From Paracholeplasma morum (GTDB lineage: Bacteria > Bacillota_I > Bacilli_A > Acholeplasmatales > UBA5453), in contig NZ_JAFBBG010000001.1 of NCBI RefSeq assembly GCF_016907055.1, positions 124,001 to 188,000 on the forward strand: DNA of 64,000 nt. Direction: 5' to 3'. Positions 19,514-26,683 of this stretch are shown here, piece after piece. Each line of letters begins with the position of its first letter. The stretch's first letter is position 1. The notes under the pieces were generated by a model. It was not told where the DNA came from, searched no databases, and saw only the letters and a program-made list of their open reading frames with translations. Both the position numbers and the translations under genes were made by a program.

Positions 19514-20884
19514 TTAGTGTTGTTTTCTTTTCATATAGTAGCTTAACCCAAAATAAAGAATGCCGAGAACTGAAAGTCCTAGAATGATAACAGCCCCGTA
19601 ACTATGACTATTTGTTGATGTTGTTATGCCTTTTTGGATCTCAATGGTTCTAGTATGGTAGGTGTGGTTACCATATTTGTCTACCACTAAATATAAGGCT
19701 TGATATATTCCTTCTTCGTCCTCGATGTTATGTTCGACCAATCTAATCTCACAAAATCCGGTATTATCTATGCAAGTAACCCCTTTTAGAAGATCGATGT
19801 CAACGGTACTAGATACGAGCTTATCAGAAGAGACAGATGGTTTTTCCTTGTCTACTACTGATAATTCAATGATATACTCACTTTTATTGTTTGAGTGATC
19901 CATTAATGTGTAAACCACATCATAATACCCTACTTTTTTGGTATCTAAGTCGGTTTCGATTATGACGTCCTCTTTAGTTAATTTTGAATGGTTATCCGAG
20001 ACCTTGAGAATTATACTTTTCGGGTCAAAGAATGTATCGAGAACGATAGATTGACTTCCAGAAGAAAAGAAGATTAATGGCGCTTCATTGTCCATAATTT
20101 CAACAAAAGATTCATATAGAGTTGAATTCCCAGACGAATCTACTACCTGTATACTAAAAGGATACTTTCCTACACTAGTATAATCTACCAATGAGTCATC
20201 TATATTAATCTCTAATGAGACTGTGTAGTTATCTTGGATAGAATAAAACGTCATTAAATTATGATCTTCACCAATGTTTAAAACTGGATTTTTAATCTCG
20301 GTAACGGTTGGGTTTAAATAATCCTTAACTTCGACTGTGATTTCGCTAATGGTTTCATTCAATGACAAGTCTACAAGCTTAATCCAAACTGGATAGTTCC
20401 CTACTCTATTCAGATTGACATGTTCGTCCATAACAATAAGCGTTAAATCCGCTAATGAATCATAGTTATCTTCATACGAAATGCTTTTCTTATAGTCAAT
20501 GCTTTTTATACCTACAGGAACTTCAACTGGATTCATCTTGATTATTTTAGGTGGAACGTTATCTACTATTTTGATGGTTATCTCAACAGTACTAGATTTT
20601 TTGTATTTCGGAGAATGTACTCGAAAATAGAGTTTATAAGATTTTACAATACTAGTATTGATGGTTGATACAAACGTATAGTTAACACCGTTTTTTTCAT
20701 ACCAAATAGAGTTGTCCTCATATCCTTCTGCTAAACTAGCATATGGAATATCTAAATATGGCGTTAAATCCGCATTAAGTGGCACTTCAATGGTCGTATT
20801 ATTCCATATGAATATACCACTTTTAATGTTATCATTCATTGTAAAAATCGGTAAAAATATTAATGCAATAAAAAGTTTAATCAT
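19514..20884 (-). CDS. Membrane-anchored surface protein with tandem Ig-like repeats
   Basis: The 456-residue protein has an N-terminal signal sequence (MIKLFIALIFLPIFTM), then repeats of about 80-90 residues, each ending in a V(K/E/V)D(N/Y/K)xxP junction followed by a beta-rich stretch with YxDN, VGxYxVxxxVxDxSxN patterns. This is the pattern of bacterial Ig-like/HYR-type (DUF5011-like) domains. A single membrane helix (AVIILGLSVLGILYFGLSYYM) and a KRKQH stop-transfer tail end the protein, so the repeats face outside. It is probably an adhesin or structural surface protein; no ligand can be named. The start at 20884 is preferred over the upstream TTG at 20896 because GGGTGA lies just before the ATG and the basic residue then opens the signal peptide. 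Confidence 0.7.
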   Translation of the reverse strand: MIKLFIALIFLPIFTMNDNIKSGIFIWNNTTIEVPLNADLTPYLDIPYASLAEGYEDNSIWYEKNGVNYTFVSTINTSIVKSYKLYFRVHSPKYKKSSTVEITIKIVDNVPPKIIKMNPVEVPVGIKSIDYKKSISYEDNYDSLADLTLIVMDEHVNLNRVGNYPVWIKLVDLSLNETISEITVEVKDYLNPTVTEIKNPVLNIGEDHNLMTFYSIQDNYTVSLEINIDDSLVDYTSVGKYPFSIQVVDSSGNSTLYESFVEIMDNEAPLIFFSSGSQSIVLDTFFDPKSIILKVSDNHSKLTKEDVIIETDLDTKKVGYYDVVYTLMDHSNNKSEYIIELSVVDKEKPSVSSDKLVSSTVDIDLLKGVTCIDNTGFCEIRLVEHNIEDEEGIYQALYLVVDKYGNHTYHTRTIEIQKGITTSTNSHSYGAVIILGLSVLGILYFGLSYYMKRKQH

Positions 20885-20932
20885 CCTATCACCCAATTAA
20901 TATATACCGGACTGTTACCTATTTTACTCTAG

Positions 20933-20972: not shown

Positions 20973-22802
20973 CTAAATGTGTTTTTCGATTTGTTGTTCG
21001 CGTTCGGTTAAGAATTGTCTCTTATAAAGTTCAAAATATGCACCACGTTTAGCAAGCAATTCTTTATGAGTTCCTTGTTCAATGATCTTACCACTCGATA
21101 GATAGACAATCAAATCACTATTGACAATCGTACTTAATCTATGAGCTACGATAAATGATGTTCTATCTTTCAGTAAAGTGTCGGTTGCTTTTTGAATAAC
21201 ACGTTCGCTTTCTGAATCGATGGATGAAGTAGCTTCGTCCAGAATCAATATTCTTGGATCTGCAAGAATGGCTCGGGCAAACGATAACAATTGTTTTTGT
21301 CCGATTGAAAGCTTGTTACCACCTTCACCGACTTCACTTTGATACCCTTTTTCCATTTCTTTAATAAAACCATCTGCACCAATTGCTTTAGCAGCATTAA
21401 TCACTTCTTCATCCGTTGCATCTAACTTACCGTAACGGATGTTTTCCATGACAGTTCCTGAGAATAGATGAGGTGATTGGAGTACATAACCCAATCGTTT
21501 GTGCAACCAATGAAGGCTGCGTTCCTTATAGTTCTTGTTGTCGATTAAGATTTCGCCTTTTGTTGGTTCATAAAATCTTGATAACAAGTTAATAATGGTA
21601 GTCTTACCGCTACCTGTATGACCTACAAGTGCAACAGATGTTCCAGCTTTAACCTTAAGGTTAAAATTGTCTAAGATGACTTCGTTATCAATGTATTGGA
21701 ATGTAACATTATTAAATGACACATCGCCAACAATCGGTTCCCAGTTTTCATATTTCGGACTTAATAAGTCACCATACTTTTCAATTACTTCATCTGTATC
21801 ATGAATTTCTGGTTTTGTCTCAATTAACTGAATGACACGTTCAGCTGAAGCTTGTGCTTGCTGAAACTGAGCTAAAATACGCGCGATTTGCATAATTGGA
21901 TCGAAAAACCTAATTGTGTATTCTACAAACGCGTATAGTGTGCCCACACTAATAACCACACCAAGTACATCTGATCCACCTTCATATGAGATCACGCCAA
22001 TAACAATGTATGAGATCATTAACATGATTGGTGAGAATATTGCACTAAAGAGAATTGCACGCATGCTTGCGCGTTTTAAACTGTGTGTTTTTTCCATGAA
22101 CTCAAGCGAGTTTTCTTTCTCAATCGCTAGACTCTTAGTAGTTTTTGCGCCCATGAATGATTCGTTATAGGAAGCGGTGACCTGAGAGTTTATTTTTCTT
22201 GATTCACGATAGCCTAATAAGATTTTTCTTCTAAAATAGATAGCAGTAACTGCCATCACAGGAATGGTTAAAGTCACTATTAAAGCCAGTTTAACGTTCA
22301 TTATGAACATAATCACAAGGATTACGAGCATAATCATTCCACTCCATAAGAAGTCAACTAATCCCCATGAAATGATATTCGCTAATCTTCTTGAGTCAGA
22401 AGTCATTCTCGCCATAACCCACCCCTGAGGGGTTTTATCAAAATAGGAGAATGATAATCTTTGTAGGGTTTCAAATGATTGTTTACGAAGTTCGTAGTTT
22501 ACTGAAACTTCGATTTTCCCTGCTTGATATATGAATCCCCAAATAGTGAATCCAAATAAAACTGCTATTACAATGTTAATAATTACAAACGGAACGAATG
22601 TATCAAATTCTTTAGCCTTGAAGAAAGTGTCAATAGCGTATTTATTCAGTAGCGGTGTTAGTGATTCTAATAACGCTAGACCTACTACAAATATAATAAG
22701 CAACGTGACATTTTTCTTAGACTTTAGAACGGTCTTTAATATTTTTTTCCAAGTGTTGAAGTTCACTTTTTCTTCTTTAAACTCTTGTTCTTCAAAGTTC
22801 AT
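20973..22802 (-). CDS. ABC exporter half-transporter, subunit 2 (canonical Walker B)
   Basis: The 609-residue protein has six membrane helices (residues about 30-320) and a C-terminal nucleotide-binding domain. Walker A is GHTGSGKTT near 393, the signature is altered to LSIGQ near 495, Walker B is ILILDEATSSID with the catalytic Glu, and the switch is VAHRLST. Together with the upstream gene it forms a heterodimeric type IV exporter of the BmrCD/LmrCD/TM287-288 kind, in which this subunit contributes the catalytic Glu. Such pumps move hydrophobic drugs, lipids or peptides outward. Its ATG shares one base with the stop of the partner gene (TAATG). Confidence 0.9.
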   Translation of the reverse strand: MNFEEQEFKEEKVNFNTWKKILKTVLKSKKNVTLLIIFVVGLALLESLTPLLNKYAIDTFFKAKEFDTFVPFVIINIVIAVLFGFTIWGFIYQAGKIEVSVNYELRKQSFETLQRLSFSYFDKTPQGWVMARMTSDSRRLANIISWGLVDFLWSGMIMLVILVIMFIMNVKLALIVTLTIPVMAVTAIYFRRKILLGYRESRKINSQVTASYNESFMGAKTTKSLAIEKENSLEFMEKTHSLKRASMRAILFSAIFSPIMLMISYIVIGVISYEGGSDVLGVVISVGTLYAFVEYTIRFFDPIMQIARILAQFQQAQASAERVIQLIETKPEIHDTDEVIEKYGDLLSPKYENWEPIVGDVSFNNVTFQYIDNEVILDNFNLKVKAGTSVALVGHTGSGKTTIINLLSRFYEPTKGEILIDNKNYKERSLHWLHKRLGYVLQSPHLFSGTVMENIRYGKLDATDEEVINAAKAIGADGFIKEMEKGYQSEVGEGGNKLSIGQKQLLSFARAILADPRILILDEATSSIDSESERVIQKATDTLLKDRTSFIVAHRLSTIVNSDLIVYLSSGKIIEQGTHKELLAKRGAYFELYKRQFLTEREQQIEKHI

Positions 22803-24610
22803 TATTTCGCCTCCTCTATCAATTGCATAAATTCAGCTTCTAGTTGACCTTGGATTTCCCATAGTTTTTGATATAGTCCCGGTTTCTTCGAAAGTGTTTC
22901 GTGAACACCAATATCTGATATCTTACCTTCTTCAAGAACAACGATCACGTCTGCTTGTTTAGCAGTTGTGATACGATGTGTAATAATAACTGTTGTCGAT
23001 TTAGAATCTCGGTCATTTAACGCATTTCTGATCATCATATCAGTTTCAGTGTCAACAGCTGATAATGAGTCGTCAAATACTAAAATAGGTTTATTATCAA
23101 TCAAGATTCTGGCAATGGCAACGCGTTGTTTTTGGCCACCTGACAACGTTGTTCCTCTTTCACCAACAATGGTGTCATACCCTTTTTCAAATGAAGAGAT
23201 GTCTTTTTCAATAGCCGCGATTTGTGCCGCTTTTAAAACGTTATCTCTGTCAACGGTTGGATTTGAGATTGCAATGTTATCATAAACAGTTTTTGAGAAT
23301 AAAAACGGTTCTTGTAAAACAATCCCCATCTGTTTTCTCAAGTAATGTTTTTCTATATTCTTGATATTTACATCGTCAATAAATATGTCCCCTGACGAGG
23401 TTTCAAGCATTCTTGACAACAAATTAATGATGGTTGTCTTACCGCTACCTGTGCGACCAATAATCGCGACAGTTTGTCCAGCTTCAACCTTGAAGCTTAC
23501 ACCATTCAATAGGCTATTTTTGCCGTCAGGGAATTGGAAATGTACATCTTTGAATTCGATTTTCCCCTTAATCTCTGGTGTGAGTGTTCCATTAACTTCG
23601 AACTCGCTTTTCTTCTCAAGGATTTCAAAAATTCTTTGAGTAGAAACTAAGGCGCGTCCAAAATCACCAATCATTCTTCCAAGACCTCTAATTGGCCATA
23701 TTAACATTCCGAGTAACATTAATACTGCAATAATTTGTCCACCAGTTATGTCGCCGTTATTTCTAACAAAAATAACACCGATCATGATGGTAACTAAATA
23801 CTGTAGCATTGCTATTGTGTCTGAGAATCCCCAGTATTTTGAGGAAATAGATTGGAACTTAAGATATTCATCGCTATATTTTTTATTCTTTTTTTCTAAT
23901 TTTTCGATTTCAAAAGATTCATTGGCAAACGCTCTAACGATTTTTGAACCTGAAAGGTTTTCTTGAATAACTGTCATCATTCCAGACTCAGTTTCTTCAA
24001 TGACCTTGAATGATTTATCAACTTTTTTGAAAAACCACACAGAGGCTATCGCAGAGATTGGTACCATTGAAAGTGCAACCAATACCATGGTTGGGCTAAT
24101 TACAAAGATTTGTACTGCCCCAAATATAACTGTAGCAAATAGTCTGAAAAATTCAGGAATTCTGTTTGAGACAAAGTTACTCATTGCCTCGATATCGGAT
24201 GTAACTCTTTGAACTAAATCTCCAGTGTCCGCATTATTATGATACGTATAATCAAGAGATTGAATATGATTATATAAGCGGTTTCTTAATTTTTCACTAA
24301 TGTTTTCTGTCAAACGTCCTCTTAAGTAGTCTTCCATAAAGACCATCGTAAAACGTAGAAGTTGATAGAAAACTAATGAACTTGCAACAATTAAAATAAT
24401 TGTTTTCTTGTCATTGCTCAACTTAAATATATCTGTGATGAACGAAGGAAAATTGGCAGTAGAGGTACCAACATCTAGAATATCGATGATATATTGTGTG
24501 AACAAAGGCACATACGAATAGGTTAATCTATTCAGTACTACGAATATGATAATCAAAAACAGTACTGGATAAAAGCCTTTTGAAACGGATAATAACTGTT
24601 TAAAACGCAT
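22802..24610 (-). CDS. ABC exporter half-transporter, subunit 1 (degenerate Walker B)
   Basis: The 602-residue protein has the same six-helix plus nucleotide-binding-domain layout. Walker A is GRTGSGKTT near 384 and the signature LSGGQ is intact, but Walker B reads ILVFDDSLSAVD, with Asp where the catalytic Glu belongs. The switch His is present (ITHRITT). This asymmetry is the hallmark of heterodimeric exporters with one degenerate ATP site. The gene starts with AAGGAGG before its ATG and has a near-consensus promoter with a palindrome beside the -35 box. The XRE-type regulator gene lies immediately upstream. Confidence 0.9.
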   Translation of the reverse strand: MRFKQLLSVSKGFYPVLFLIIIFVVLNRLTYSYVPLFTQYIIDILDVGTSTANFPSFITDIFKLSNDKKTIILIVASSLVFYQLLRFTMVFMEDYLRGRLTENISEKLRNRLYNHIQSLDYTYHNNADTGDLVQRVTSDIEAMSNFVSNRIPEFFRLFATVIFGAVQIFVISPTMVLVALSMVPISAIASVWFFKKVDKSFKVIEETESGMMTVIQENLSGSKIVRAFANESFEIEKLEKKNKKYSDEYLKFQSISSKYWGFSDTIAMLQYLVTIMIGVIFVRNNGDITGGQIIAVLMLLGMLIWPIRGLGRMIGDFGRALVSTQRIFEILEKKSEFEVNGTLTPEIKGKIEFKDVHFQFPDGKNSLLNGVSFKVEAGQTVAIIGRTGSGKTTIINLLSRMLETSSGDIFIDDVNIKNIEKHYLRKQMGIVLQEPFLFSKTVYDNIAISNPTVDRDNVLKAAQIAAIEKDISSFEKGYDTIVGERGTTLSGGQKQRVAIARILIDNKPILVFDDSLSAVDTETDMMIRNALNDRDSKSTTVIITHRITTAKQADVIVVLEEGKISDIGVHETLSKKPGLYQKLWEIQGQLEAEFMQLIEEAK

Positions 24611-24638
24611 ACTATGCCCTCCTTACGTTCAACTAATA

Positions 24639-24667
24639 ATTGTACTAAAAAGAGATGTGAAAGTCAA
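24639..24667 (-). promoter_or_regulatory. Promoter of the ABC exporter operon
   Basis: On the minus strand TTGACT (24667-24662) and TACAAT (24644-24639) are separated by exactly 17 bases, a near-consensus housekeeping promoter. Confidence 0.85.
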
Positions 24668-24668
24668 T

Positions 24669-24681
24669 GTGCAAGGTGCAC
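24669..24681. promoter_or_regulatory. Candidate operator palindrome beside the ABC promoter -35 box
   Basis: GTGCA and TGCAC form a perfect 5-bp inverted repeat around a 3-base centre, ending one base upstream of the -35 hexamer. It lies between the regulator gene and the exporter operon. An alternative reading is a plus-strand terminator, since TTTTTTT follows on that strand, but no plus-strand gene feeds into it. Confidence 0.45.
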
Positions 24682-24718
24682 GTTTTTTTCCGCTATATTT
24701 CCTTATTAATGCGATTTT

Positions 24719-25939
24719 CTATGACCAATAGTAGTTTTCTTTAATGTATTTTTTTCGCTCTGATATATACTCTGTTACTTTGACAGCGTCTTTATATTTA
24801 TGGATTTTAGCATATTTAGAAGCCAGTATATATCCATAAAAGTGAATTAGGATATGATTATTCATCACAAACTTATCTATAAAAACAATATTTCTTAAGG
24901 TATGTATGCAGTCCGGGTTATCTTTCGTTTTATGAAGATAGTCTAAAATGTGTGTTTCAATCCTATGTAGTTTAGTCTTATCAATTTGATTGAAGGCGTG
25001 TTCAAAATTGGCTTTATCTTCAATAATCCAAAATGCAATCGATTTGACAAAAGCTGATGCTTGATCATCCAGAATAATCATGTCAACAATGGACTGATCG
25101 CTGTTATAACACAACTTATTGAGATAGCCCATTGATCGAATTGAGTGACATTCACTCACCTTTTCTAATTTGAGAAAATAGTCCGGTGGCGCAATAAACT
25201 GCCCATAAGCTAGAAAGTCCGCATCAATCTCTTTTACGAAGTGTTCAAGTTTGTGCTTTCGAAGTAGTAACGTTGTTTCTTCGTATTTTTTTTCTATAAA
25301 AGTGAAATTCCCACTTAACAATGCGAGTTTATACTCCATGACTTTAATCCATATTTGAAGCTTCGAATTCTCAACAGGGGTTTCTTTCATCAAATCTAGG
25401 TAATTTACAGCAGATGTATAATCTTCTGTGATATAAGAATAGTGAGCAAAAGTCATCATTAGTATACTACTTTCAATGGCTTTCATTTTATCAATTTGGT
25501 TTAAGAGTAATGTCACATGCATTTCTGATCCATGAATTTCTTTGTTGATAATTCTTAAAGTAAAATCTATGAGTTTGGCTTGAAAATCATCTCTCGAGTC
25601 GATTAAGTCGAGTAGGTCAGAATAATCCTCTTTGGTTTTCAATACGACGCTAAGTAGCTCATCATACCAATAAGACATGTTTTGGTTAATTAAAAGTACA
25701 TCCTCATTAATTGATAACTCATTAACAATTCGTTTACCATTTTTATGAGTAACTTGAATGATGTTATTTTCCAGCTTACTCAAATAAGAGATGGACATTT
25801 TAGTTTTCTTACTAATGTACTCTAGTGTTTTCTTTTGTTTAATCCTATGATACTTTAATGTGGTTCCAATCATCGGTTTTGGATCATACTCTTTCTTCAA
25901 GGAGTTCCTTATTTCGTTTAATTTGTGATTTGGTTTCAT
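24719..25939 (-). CDS. XRE-family regulator with long helical C-terminal domain (RNPP/Rgg-like architecture)
   Basis: The 406-residue protein has an HTH of the Cro/C1 (XRE) type at about residues 26-78 (TLKYHRIKQKKTLEYISKKTKMSISYLSKLE spread over that span), followed by some 320 residues of helix-rich sequence with TPR-like periodicity. This layout resembles Rgg/PlcR-type regulators, in which the repeats bind a peptide. I cannot assign it to a named family. It lies upstream of, and in the same direction as, the heterodimeric exporter operon, whose promoter carries a palindrome. Local control of the pump is therefore a reasonable inference. The start codon's Shine-Dalgarno (AAAGGG) is somewhat distant, so a start further downstream is possible. 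Confidence 0.65.
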   Translation of the reverse strand: MKPNHKLNEIRNSLKKEYDPKPMIGTTLKYHRIKQKKTLEYISKKTKMSISYLSKLENNIIQVTHKNGKRIVNELSINEDVLLINQNMSYWYDELLSVVLKTKEDYSDLLDLIDSRDDFQAKLIDFTLRIINKEIHGSEMHVTLLLNQIDKMKAIESSILMMTFAHYSYITEDYTSAVNYLDLMKETPVENSKLQIWIKVMEYKLALLSGNFTFIEKKYEETTLLLRKHKLEHFVKEIDADFLAYGQFIAPPDYFLKLEKVSECHSIRSMGYLNKLCYNSDQSIVDMIILDDQASAFVKSIAFWIIEDKANFEHAFNQIDKTKLHRIETHILDYLHKTKDNPDCIHTLRNIVFIDKFVMNNHILIHFYGYILASKYAKIHKYKDAVKVTEYISERKKYIKENYYWS

Positions 25940-26053: not shown

Positions 26054-26683
26054 TTATTTTTTTACCTTAAATTCGTACTTACAATCCTTGAAAAACGGGC
26101 AGTCATCGCATTTAGGATTTTTTGCCAAACAATGATATCGTCCAAAAAAAATCATTTGGTGGTGTACTTTTAACCACGAACTTCTTGGTATTTTCCGATT
26201 AAGTTTTTGTTCAATTTGGAGAACATTGTCCATTTTCTTGGCAAGTCCTAATCGCACTGAAATTCTAGCTACGTGAGTATCTACTGCAAGTGCTGGAATA
26301 TCAAAGGCATTAGATAATACGACATTTGCAGTTTTTCTACCAACACCGGGTAATGATTCTAAGTCTGCCCTTTTGTTTGGAACTTGTGAATCATAGGATT
26401 CATATAGAATTCTTGCTAGCTCAATGATGTTTTTCGCTTTATTTCGGTATAGACCGATTGTTTTTATATGCGATTCCACATCTTCTTGTGTTGCTTTACT
26501 TAAAGCCTCAGGCGTCTGATATGCTTCAAATAGCGTTTTCGTAACTTTGTTAACTGCTTTGTCTGTTGTTTGGGCAGATAAAACAACTGCGATCAATAGT
26601 TCAAATGGGTTAGTATAATCGAGTTCAGCTTTTGCATTTGGAAACATCTCATTAAGCGTGCTTAAGAAAAACTCTATATTCAT
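26054..26683 (-). CDS. nth: Endonuclease III (DNA glycosylase/AP lyase)
   Basis: The 209-residue enzyme removes oxidised pyrimidines and nicks abasic sites. It has the helix-hairpin-helix LPGVGRKTANVV with the catalytic Lys near 111-122, the catalytic Asp in AVDTHVARI, and four cysteines of the [4Fe-4S] cluster at the C-terminus in the spacing C-X6-C-X2-C-X5-C (185, 192, 195, 201). Its ATG overlaps the dnaD stop by four bases. The dnaD-nth order is the same as in Bacillus. Confidence 0.96.
   Translation of the reverse strand: MNIEFFLSTLNEMFPNAKAELDYTNPFELLIAVVLSAQTTDKAVNKVTKTLFEAYQTPEALSKATQEDVESHIKTIGLYRNKAKNIIELARILYESYDSQVPNKRADLESLPGVGRKTANVVLSNAFDIPALAVDTHVARISVRLGLAKKMDNVLQIEQKLNRKIPRSSWLKVHHQMIFFGRYHCLAKNPKCDDCPFFKDCKYEFKVKK

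Follow-up and report, generated by a model that had tools for sequence, protein, structure and literature searches.

A probable RRNPP-fold regulator, distantly related to NprR, beside an ABC exporter pair in Paracholeplasma morum

Most descriptions of peptide receptors of the RRNPP fold come from the Bacillales and Lactobacillales, and as a rule a peptide gene adjoins that of the receptor. All RRNPPA receptors except Rap carry an N-terminal XRE helix-turn-helix (HTH), and the PlcR, Rgg and PrgX receptors measure about 280-315 amino acids. Passages of one account assign the RRNPPA subfamilies to these two orders, record receptors without propeptides, and describe TPR motifs as canonical or degenerate in the Bacillales RRNPPA types and absent in Rgg and PrgX (PMC9765709). 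Excerpts of two further papers indicate that non-peptide acids can drive a ComR receptor (PMC12998947) and that RstA of Clostridioides difficile combines a species-specific C-terminal domain with an inverted repeat at its promoter (PMC6414698). Part of another paper attributes an ABC-transporter regulon to the regulator ACL_RS02085 of A. laidlawii (PMC5138195). Literature searches, which took in papers without their supplements, brought up none that describes an RRNPP regulator from the Acholeplasmatales, and a core, pheromone-free RRNPP lineage in this order was not found in print.

The gene described here, REG, lies in a window of 64,000 nucleotides from P. morum, the whole stretch of DNA analysed, from whose first base all window coordinates are counted. 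Our main reading, held at a probability of about 0.55, is that REG encodes a pheromone-less regulator of the RRNPP type that would respond to a ligand and have the promoter of the adjoining exporter as one of its outputs.

Gene order, fold and kinship of the regulator

The window carries, in this order, nth (endonuclease III; 26054-26683, minus strand), which usually lies next to REG on its upstream side in the Acholeplasmatales, REG itself (24719-25939, minus strand), the exporter halves ABC1 (22802-24610, minus strand) and ABC2 (20973-22802, minus strand), a gene for an Ig-like surface protein (19514-20896, minus strand) and, by our own reading, a probable dnaE-like gene. REG opens with ATG in the list of open reading frames and encodes 406 amino acids; its description as an XRE regulator with RRNPP-type helical repeats draws on the reading frame, Pfam, a structure model, fold comparison and profiles. 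Reading frames and Pfam domains confirmed the original prediction that an XRE protein of this length lies directly upstream of an ABC exporter pair. The conserved HTH part spans residues 22-82 or so (25694-25876, minus strand), with the HTH_3 domain at residues 28-80 scoring 23.4 bits (cut-off 23) and recurring in 15 of the 16 members of set A1 at E<=0.1. Behind it, residues from about 83 to 403 (24731-25693, minus strand) form a fast-diverging C-terminal superhelix of the Rap/NprR type. Pfam returned no TPR match for REG and no family besides the XRE HTH, TPR_2 appeared weakly in 2/16 members of A1, and NCBIfam gave HTH models, two chance-level matches and nothing else. In one gene seen twice (L025, 9262-9529, and L026), the REG frame lacks any ATG, GTG or TTG ahead of the HTH and opens around ATT, just past a four-codon mini-frame (ATG-AAT-TTG-TAT-TAA) with a good Shine-Dalgarno sequence (SD); the same mini-frame precedes REG in L027.

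Both exporter genes lie on the strand of REG, and each product carries ABC_membrane and ABC_tran domains in Pfam. ABC1 has a degenerate Walker B motif, LVFDD, in which Asp takes the place of the catalytic Glu, and the signature of ABC2 is degenerate too, reading LSIGQ instead of LSGGQ. Opposite degenerate motifs in two half-transporters are the split expected of a heterodimer. With these two motifs in adjacent halves, and hence one degenerate ATPase site, the pair looks heterodimeric. In comparisons with the PDB, ABC2 matched TM288 (1.2e-104) and YheH (4.9e-103); ABC1 matched Sav1866 (4.1e-87) and 5mkk_B (1.1e-82), which ranked behind eukaryotic ABCB proteins.

The AlphaFold model of REG, built with 42 sequences, is all helical (pLDDT 88.1, pTM 0.84), and the expected helical-repeat C-terminal domain appears in it as a superhelix of the Rap/NprR type. 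By VIA-align, the best match of this domain was RapF (Z 19.2 over 314 residues at 5.7 Å), followed by RapJ (18.0), NprR (17.0 over 307 residues at 4.8 Å, and 16.5) and AimR (14.6), with PlcR reaching a Z of 10.1. Foldseek alone gave no match at E<=0.001; Rgg2, the best at 0.011, leads its list together with PrgX, and 41 of the 50 matches listed are chains of Rgg, PrgX, ComR, PlcR, AimR or ElrR. A peptide-binding build like that of Rgg or PlcR had been predicted: the RRNPP build stood, but REG, at 406 amino acids, lies closer to Rap and NprR; the PlcR, Rgg and PrgX receptors fall short of its length.

By sequence, a profile of 16 orthologues retrieved from the PDB HTH proteins and weak helical repeats only. 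The REG profile aligned with that of 20 Bacillaceae relatives at 99.9% (E 4.4e-32, 380 columns, 15% identity), and the C-terminal domains alone did so at 94.9% (E 4.3e-8, 303 columns), against 0.2% for a reversed control. These Bacillaceae proteins, of about 420 amino acids, came from the same locus scan that gave the REG relatives, and their profile matches NprR at 5.8e-47. REG is thus very probably an RRNPP-fold regulator and a distant relative of NprR, with fold and kinship both well supported. In an unrooted tree of 71 rows, the 20 Bacillaceae rows all group with families f12 and f15 on a single branch (SH-aLRT 98), and all other rows, including that of the window, fall outside it. To judge from this placement and from the lack of a propeptide gene, REG is not a member of the NprR subfamily.

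Propeptide-like genes were sought as frames of 20-120 codons with an SD and a basic and hydrophobic start, from -60 to +350 of the REG stop codon. Such a gene stands just downstream of the receptor in 29 of 36 Bacillaceae loci (random positions, 54/720), whereas the Acholeplasmatales set of 41 loci, which includes L134 (Izimaplasma) and L080 and omits the truncated L135, has one in two loci, near the random rate of 26/820. Class-wide, 2/39 loci have one, both in f12. Because the nearest Bacillaceae relatives are NprR-like and have propeptide genes, and the Acholeplasmatales stay near the random rate, REG is read as a pheromone-less relative of NprR. By the same definition neither of the gaps beside REG in the window holds a small gene of the propeptide type, which bears out the earlier statement that these two intergenic gaps hold no convincing peptide gene. 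In the gap between REG and ABC1 of L115 (Acholeplasma oculi) there is a hydrophobic frame of 15 codons (MLKNTLILFIIGGLN) with AGGAGG ahead of it; it was rejected as a small peptide gene, as nothing alike recurs. The f12 genes that overlap the REG stop codon encode a secreted-type protein of 111 amino acids in L191 and an NprX-like propeptide of 41-43 amino acids in L192.

The two parts of REG are conserved to very different degrees. Over the 861 pairs of set A2, median identity is 39% in the HTH (residues 22-82) and 15% in the C-terminal domain, and in 0/861 pairs is the C-terminal domain the better conserved. Residues R32, T38, S49, S51, K55 and E57 of the HTH and Y382 and K383 of the C-terminal domain are invariant in A2. 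Against the nearest relative of the window, REG is 29% identical, compared with 79% for nth and 83% for ABC1. A conserved HTH with a diverging C-terminal domain would fit a constant DNA target and a changing ligand; the same pattern would result if constraint on the C-terminal domain were relaxed.

Promoter and palindrome in the gap before the exporter

The exporter promoter, TTGACT-N17-TACAAT (24667-24639, minus strand), has its -35 box at 24662-24667 and its -10 box at 24639-24644, and the sequence AAGGAGG at 24618-24624 on the same strand reads as the SD of ABC1. The promoter matches the consensus at 10 of 12 positions. Since the promoter scan overall found 25 cases against 25.9 in shuffles, no excess, this score alone weighs little. 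The promoter is conserved in relatives, and the near-consensus promoter foreseen between REG and the pump is present, with its 17-base spacer. Apart from the promoter, a run of seven A (A7) and the SD, nothing in the gap between REG and ABC1 is conserved in relatives, and an operator was not found there.

One base upstream of the -35 box lies the palindrome GTGCA-CCT-TGCAC (24669-24681), where the original prediction had placed it. In the window GTGCAAGGTGCAC is the sole match with at most one mismatch, against 0.93 expected by chance. When the dinucleotides of the 108-base gap were shuffled 2000 times, 95 of the shuffles (about 5%) contained an inverted repeat of equal or better quality. Same-genus loci retain A7 and the promoter and lack the palindrome: the sequence before the -35 box is AAAAAAACGTGCACCTTGCACA in the window and AAAAAAACGCTAGAAAGCG, AAAAAAATGCCCGGAGGCG and AAAAAAAGCCCTAAGACG in those loci. 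A search of its own genome (1.56 Mb in 29 contigs) gave 14 places with at most one mismatch, against 10 for the reversed control. Two of the 14 are exact, the second lying inside a dnaJ-like coding frame. With no enrichment over the control and the extra exact copy in a coding frame, the palindrome was rejected as a regulon motif. Loci of another family have a different element, TGYAT, placed 19-20 bases ahead of the -35 box of the pump promoter in 11 of 21 cases (L034, L040, L082, L092, L093, L102, L103, L110, L116, L122 and L138), against 0.14 expected from shuffling, a count inflated by the shared ancestry of the loci; this element is possibly functional. The other-family motif TTGCATTATGYCC-N3-AAAAATTGACT, allowing up to three mismatches, was also rejected, being found in 2/13 genomes, once in each and never in the genus of the window.

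Between REG and ABC1 of L031, a 13-base inverted repeat (AAAACCTTCTTAT / ATAAGAAGGTTTT) spans the whole exporter promoter and reaches as far as the SD. Because it embraces the promoter and ends at the SD, this repeat could be folded by read-through RNA only.

Instead of an operator, the palindrome might be a hairpin or the relic of a UP region that insulates the pump from REG read-through, or a terminator for the opposite strand, a tentative reading that falls somewhat short of even odds. Read on the plus strand, the palindrome makes a hairpin with a T-run behind it (24666-24684), terminator-like, and L024 and L025, of the same genus, could form other hairpins after the same A7. RNA folding also gave long hairpins around the promoter in two further members of the family, L027 and L031 (z -3.2 and -3.7), and the SD of the window is predicted to be 0.02 unpaired in read-through RNA, compared with 0.46 in RNA that starts at the exporter promoter. 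The read-through fold of the window is ordinary, however (z -0.76), and masking of the SD was not seen in L025 or L027 and was absent in most other-family loci. The case for insulation of the pump by RNA is suggestive, and in the window's family only.

Inheritance and neighbours of the regulator gene

REG matches at E<=1e-10 occur in 115/160 genomes of the order, in 69/88 among the more complete ones and in 158/395 genomes of the class. Among 20 listed of the 45 order genomes without a match, 15 belong to g20, with very small genomes. A single-sequence scan of genome contigs for named REG relatives found none; an alignment-based scan then gave 80 loci. When distinct loci were sorted, 27 had the order nth-REG-ABC1, 10 had nth and REG followed by the Ig-like gene without a pump, and two had nth, REG and another gene; three end too soon, and 43, mostly from Bacillaceae, lack nth just upstream. 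From these comparisons REG reads as an old, vertically inherited and mostly single-copy gene that usually stands behind nth.

In the window's family, ABC1-like matches occur in all 13 genomes, and nine have a close orthologue (at least 54% identity), which adjoins REG in eight of them. In the ninth, G005 (locus L152), the pump lies about 1 Mb from REG; there REG has stayed beside nth, but its recognition helix is altered, and the ABC pair keeps its Ig and dnaE neighbours and sits behind IS3-type transposase-like genes. L032, where ABC1 might have left a vestige between REG and the Ig gene, gave a weak match of 28% over 32 residues, with an E of 0.003 when this single locus was searched. In f16, the gene directly after REG encodes a MATE exporter in six of the nine loci with downstream sequence, a tenth ending too soon; the other three have a convergent mrp-like gene next, which elsewhere is found after MATE. 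MATE also follows REG in one of the two f7 loci, and the two MATE proteins checked lie above the curated cut-off of TIGR00797. By our reading, the next gene is probably methyltransferase-like in f9 and f19 and a convergent, apparently non-exporter gene in f23 and f24. An exporter behind REG is common, not universal.

These neighbourhoods weaken the idea that pump and regulator form one fixed unit. The two adjoin in the window and in many relatives, but REG also stands at nth without a pump, and the two are apart in G005. Their adjacency may be incidental, because ten nth loci have no pump and the next gene in f9, f19, f23 and f24 is not an exporter. It is rather unlikely that REG controls itself or other genes and that the exporter is a bystander with a strong constitutive promoter. 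Such an arrangement would agree with the persistence of REG at the same place where the pump is missing or, as in G005, has moved, and with the near-consensus, well-conserved promoter that the pump has of its own. It would leave aside that heterodimeric ABC and MATE exporters, which are unrelated, both stand directly behind REG in different orders, and that G005, with its pump elsewhere, shows a change in the otherwise conserved recognition-helix motif. Since two unrelated exporter families take the slot after REG in different orders, the exporter is kept in view as a target of REG. That REG regulates the pump has about even odds, and the exporter is likely a lineage-specific client.

Mechanism and comparison with known systems

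Under the main reading, that of a pheromone-less, ligand-responsive regulator, REG would dimerise and use its conserved HTH to bind DNA, and a cytosolic ligand held in the fast-diverging superhelix, most likely a small peptide or a peptide-like amphiphile, would alter that binding. As the ligand builds up, REG would act on the adjoining promoter and the ABC pair would be made, the sign of control and the target both being presumed. This model works without the palindrome.

The palindrome had been put forward as the regulator's own site. This did not hold in the same-genus loci examined, from which it is absent, nor in the genome-wide search, whose single further exact copy, in the dnaJ-like frame, is not a regulatory one. 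A dimer site that co-evolves with REG remains unlikely, quite improbable even as the place and symmetry of the palindrome and the fast evolution of REG would suit it, and as TGYAT, loosely like GTGCA-N3-TGC, recurs before other-family pump promoters; the recognition helix is conserved but the palindrome is not, and kinship inflates the TGYAT count. Improbable too is a true quorum-sensing receptor with a peptide that is encoded elsewhere, leaderless or from the signal peptide of the Ig-like protein: the RRNPP fold, an Opp-type binding protein encoded in the genome and the Ig-like gene, whose product begins with a hydrophobic stretch and which takes the slot of a propeptide gene directly downstream of REG in pump-less relatives, speak for it, but the flanks of REG hold no conserved small peptide gene, and in the window the Ig gene sits behind the pump.

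A wider scenario, which we regard as doubtful, would have a large, pheromone-free, vertically inherited RRNPP branch extend across wall-less and related orders, in which the receptor would sense a non-pheromone cytosolic ligand and drive the adjoining ABC or MATE exporter; pheromone genes would then be a later gain in the NprR lineage and not the original condition. For wall-less bacteria, a relative that is core, single-copy and peptide-free and has either of two kinds of exporter in one slot offers a natural test of sensing without a pheromone, and the same system is a test of whether pheromones came first or later.

Among described regulators, NprR of Bacillus thuringiensis (4gpk, 5dbk) resembles REG in joining an XRE HTH to a superhelical C-terminal domain of similar length, and the NprR-like Bacillaceae set and the REG set share the invariant C-terminal Tyr-Lys; unlike NprR, REG has no propeptide gene, no recognisable TPR sequence and another genomic place. 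The Rap phosphatases (RapF, 4i9c; RapJ, 4gyo) offer the best fold match to the C-terminal domain but lack the HTH. AimR, the arbitrium receptor of SPbeta, is similar in size and likewise combines an HTH with a superhelix, although it is a phage gene with a peptide and its fold match is lower. RstA of C. difficile, as described in part of PMC6414698, is comparable as an RRNPP regulator without an adjoining propeptide gene. Unlike REG, RstA controls toxin, motility and sporulation genes. On the side of the exporter, TM287/288, YheI/YheH (BmrCD) and TmrAB likewise consist of two half-transporters with opposite degenerate motifs, and the pair in the window differs from them in standing beside a regulator of a different kind.
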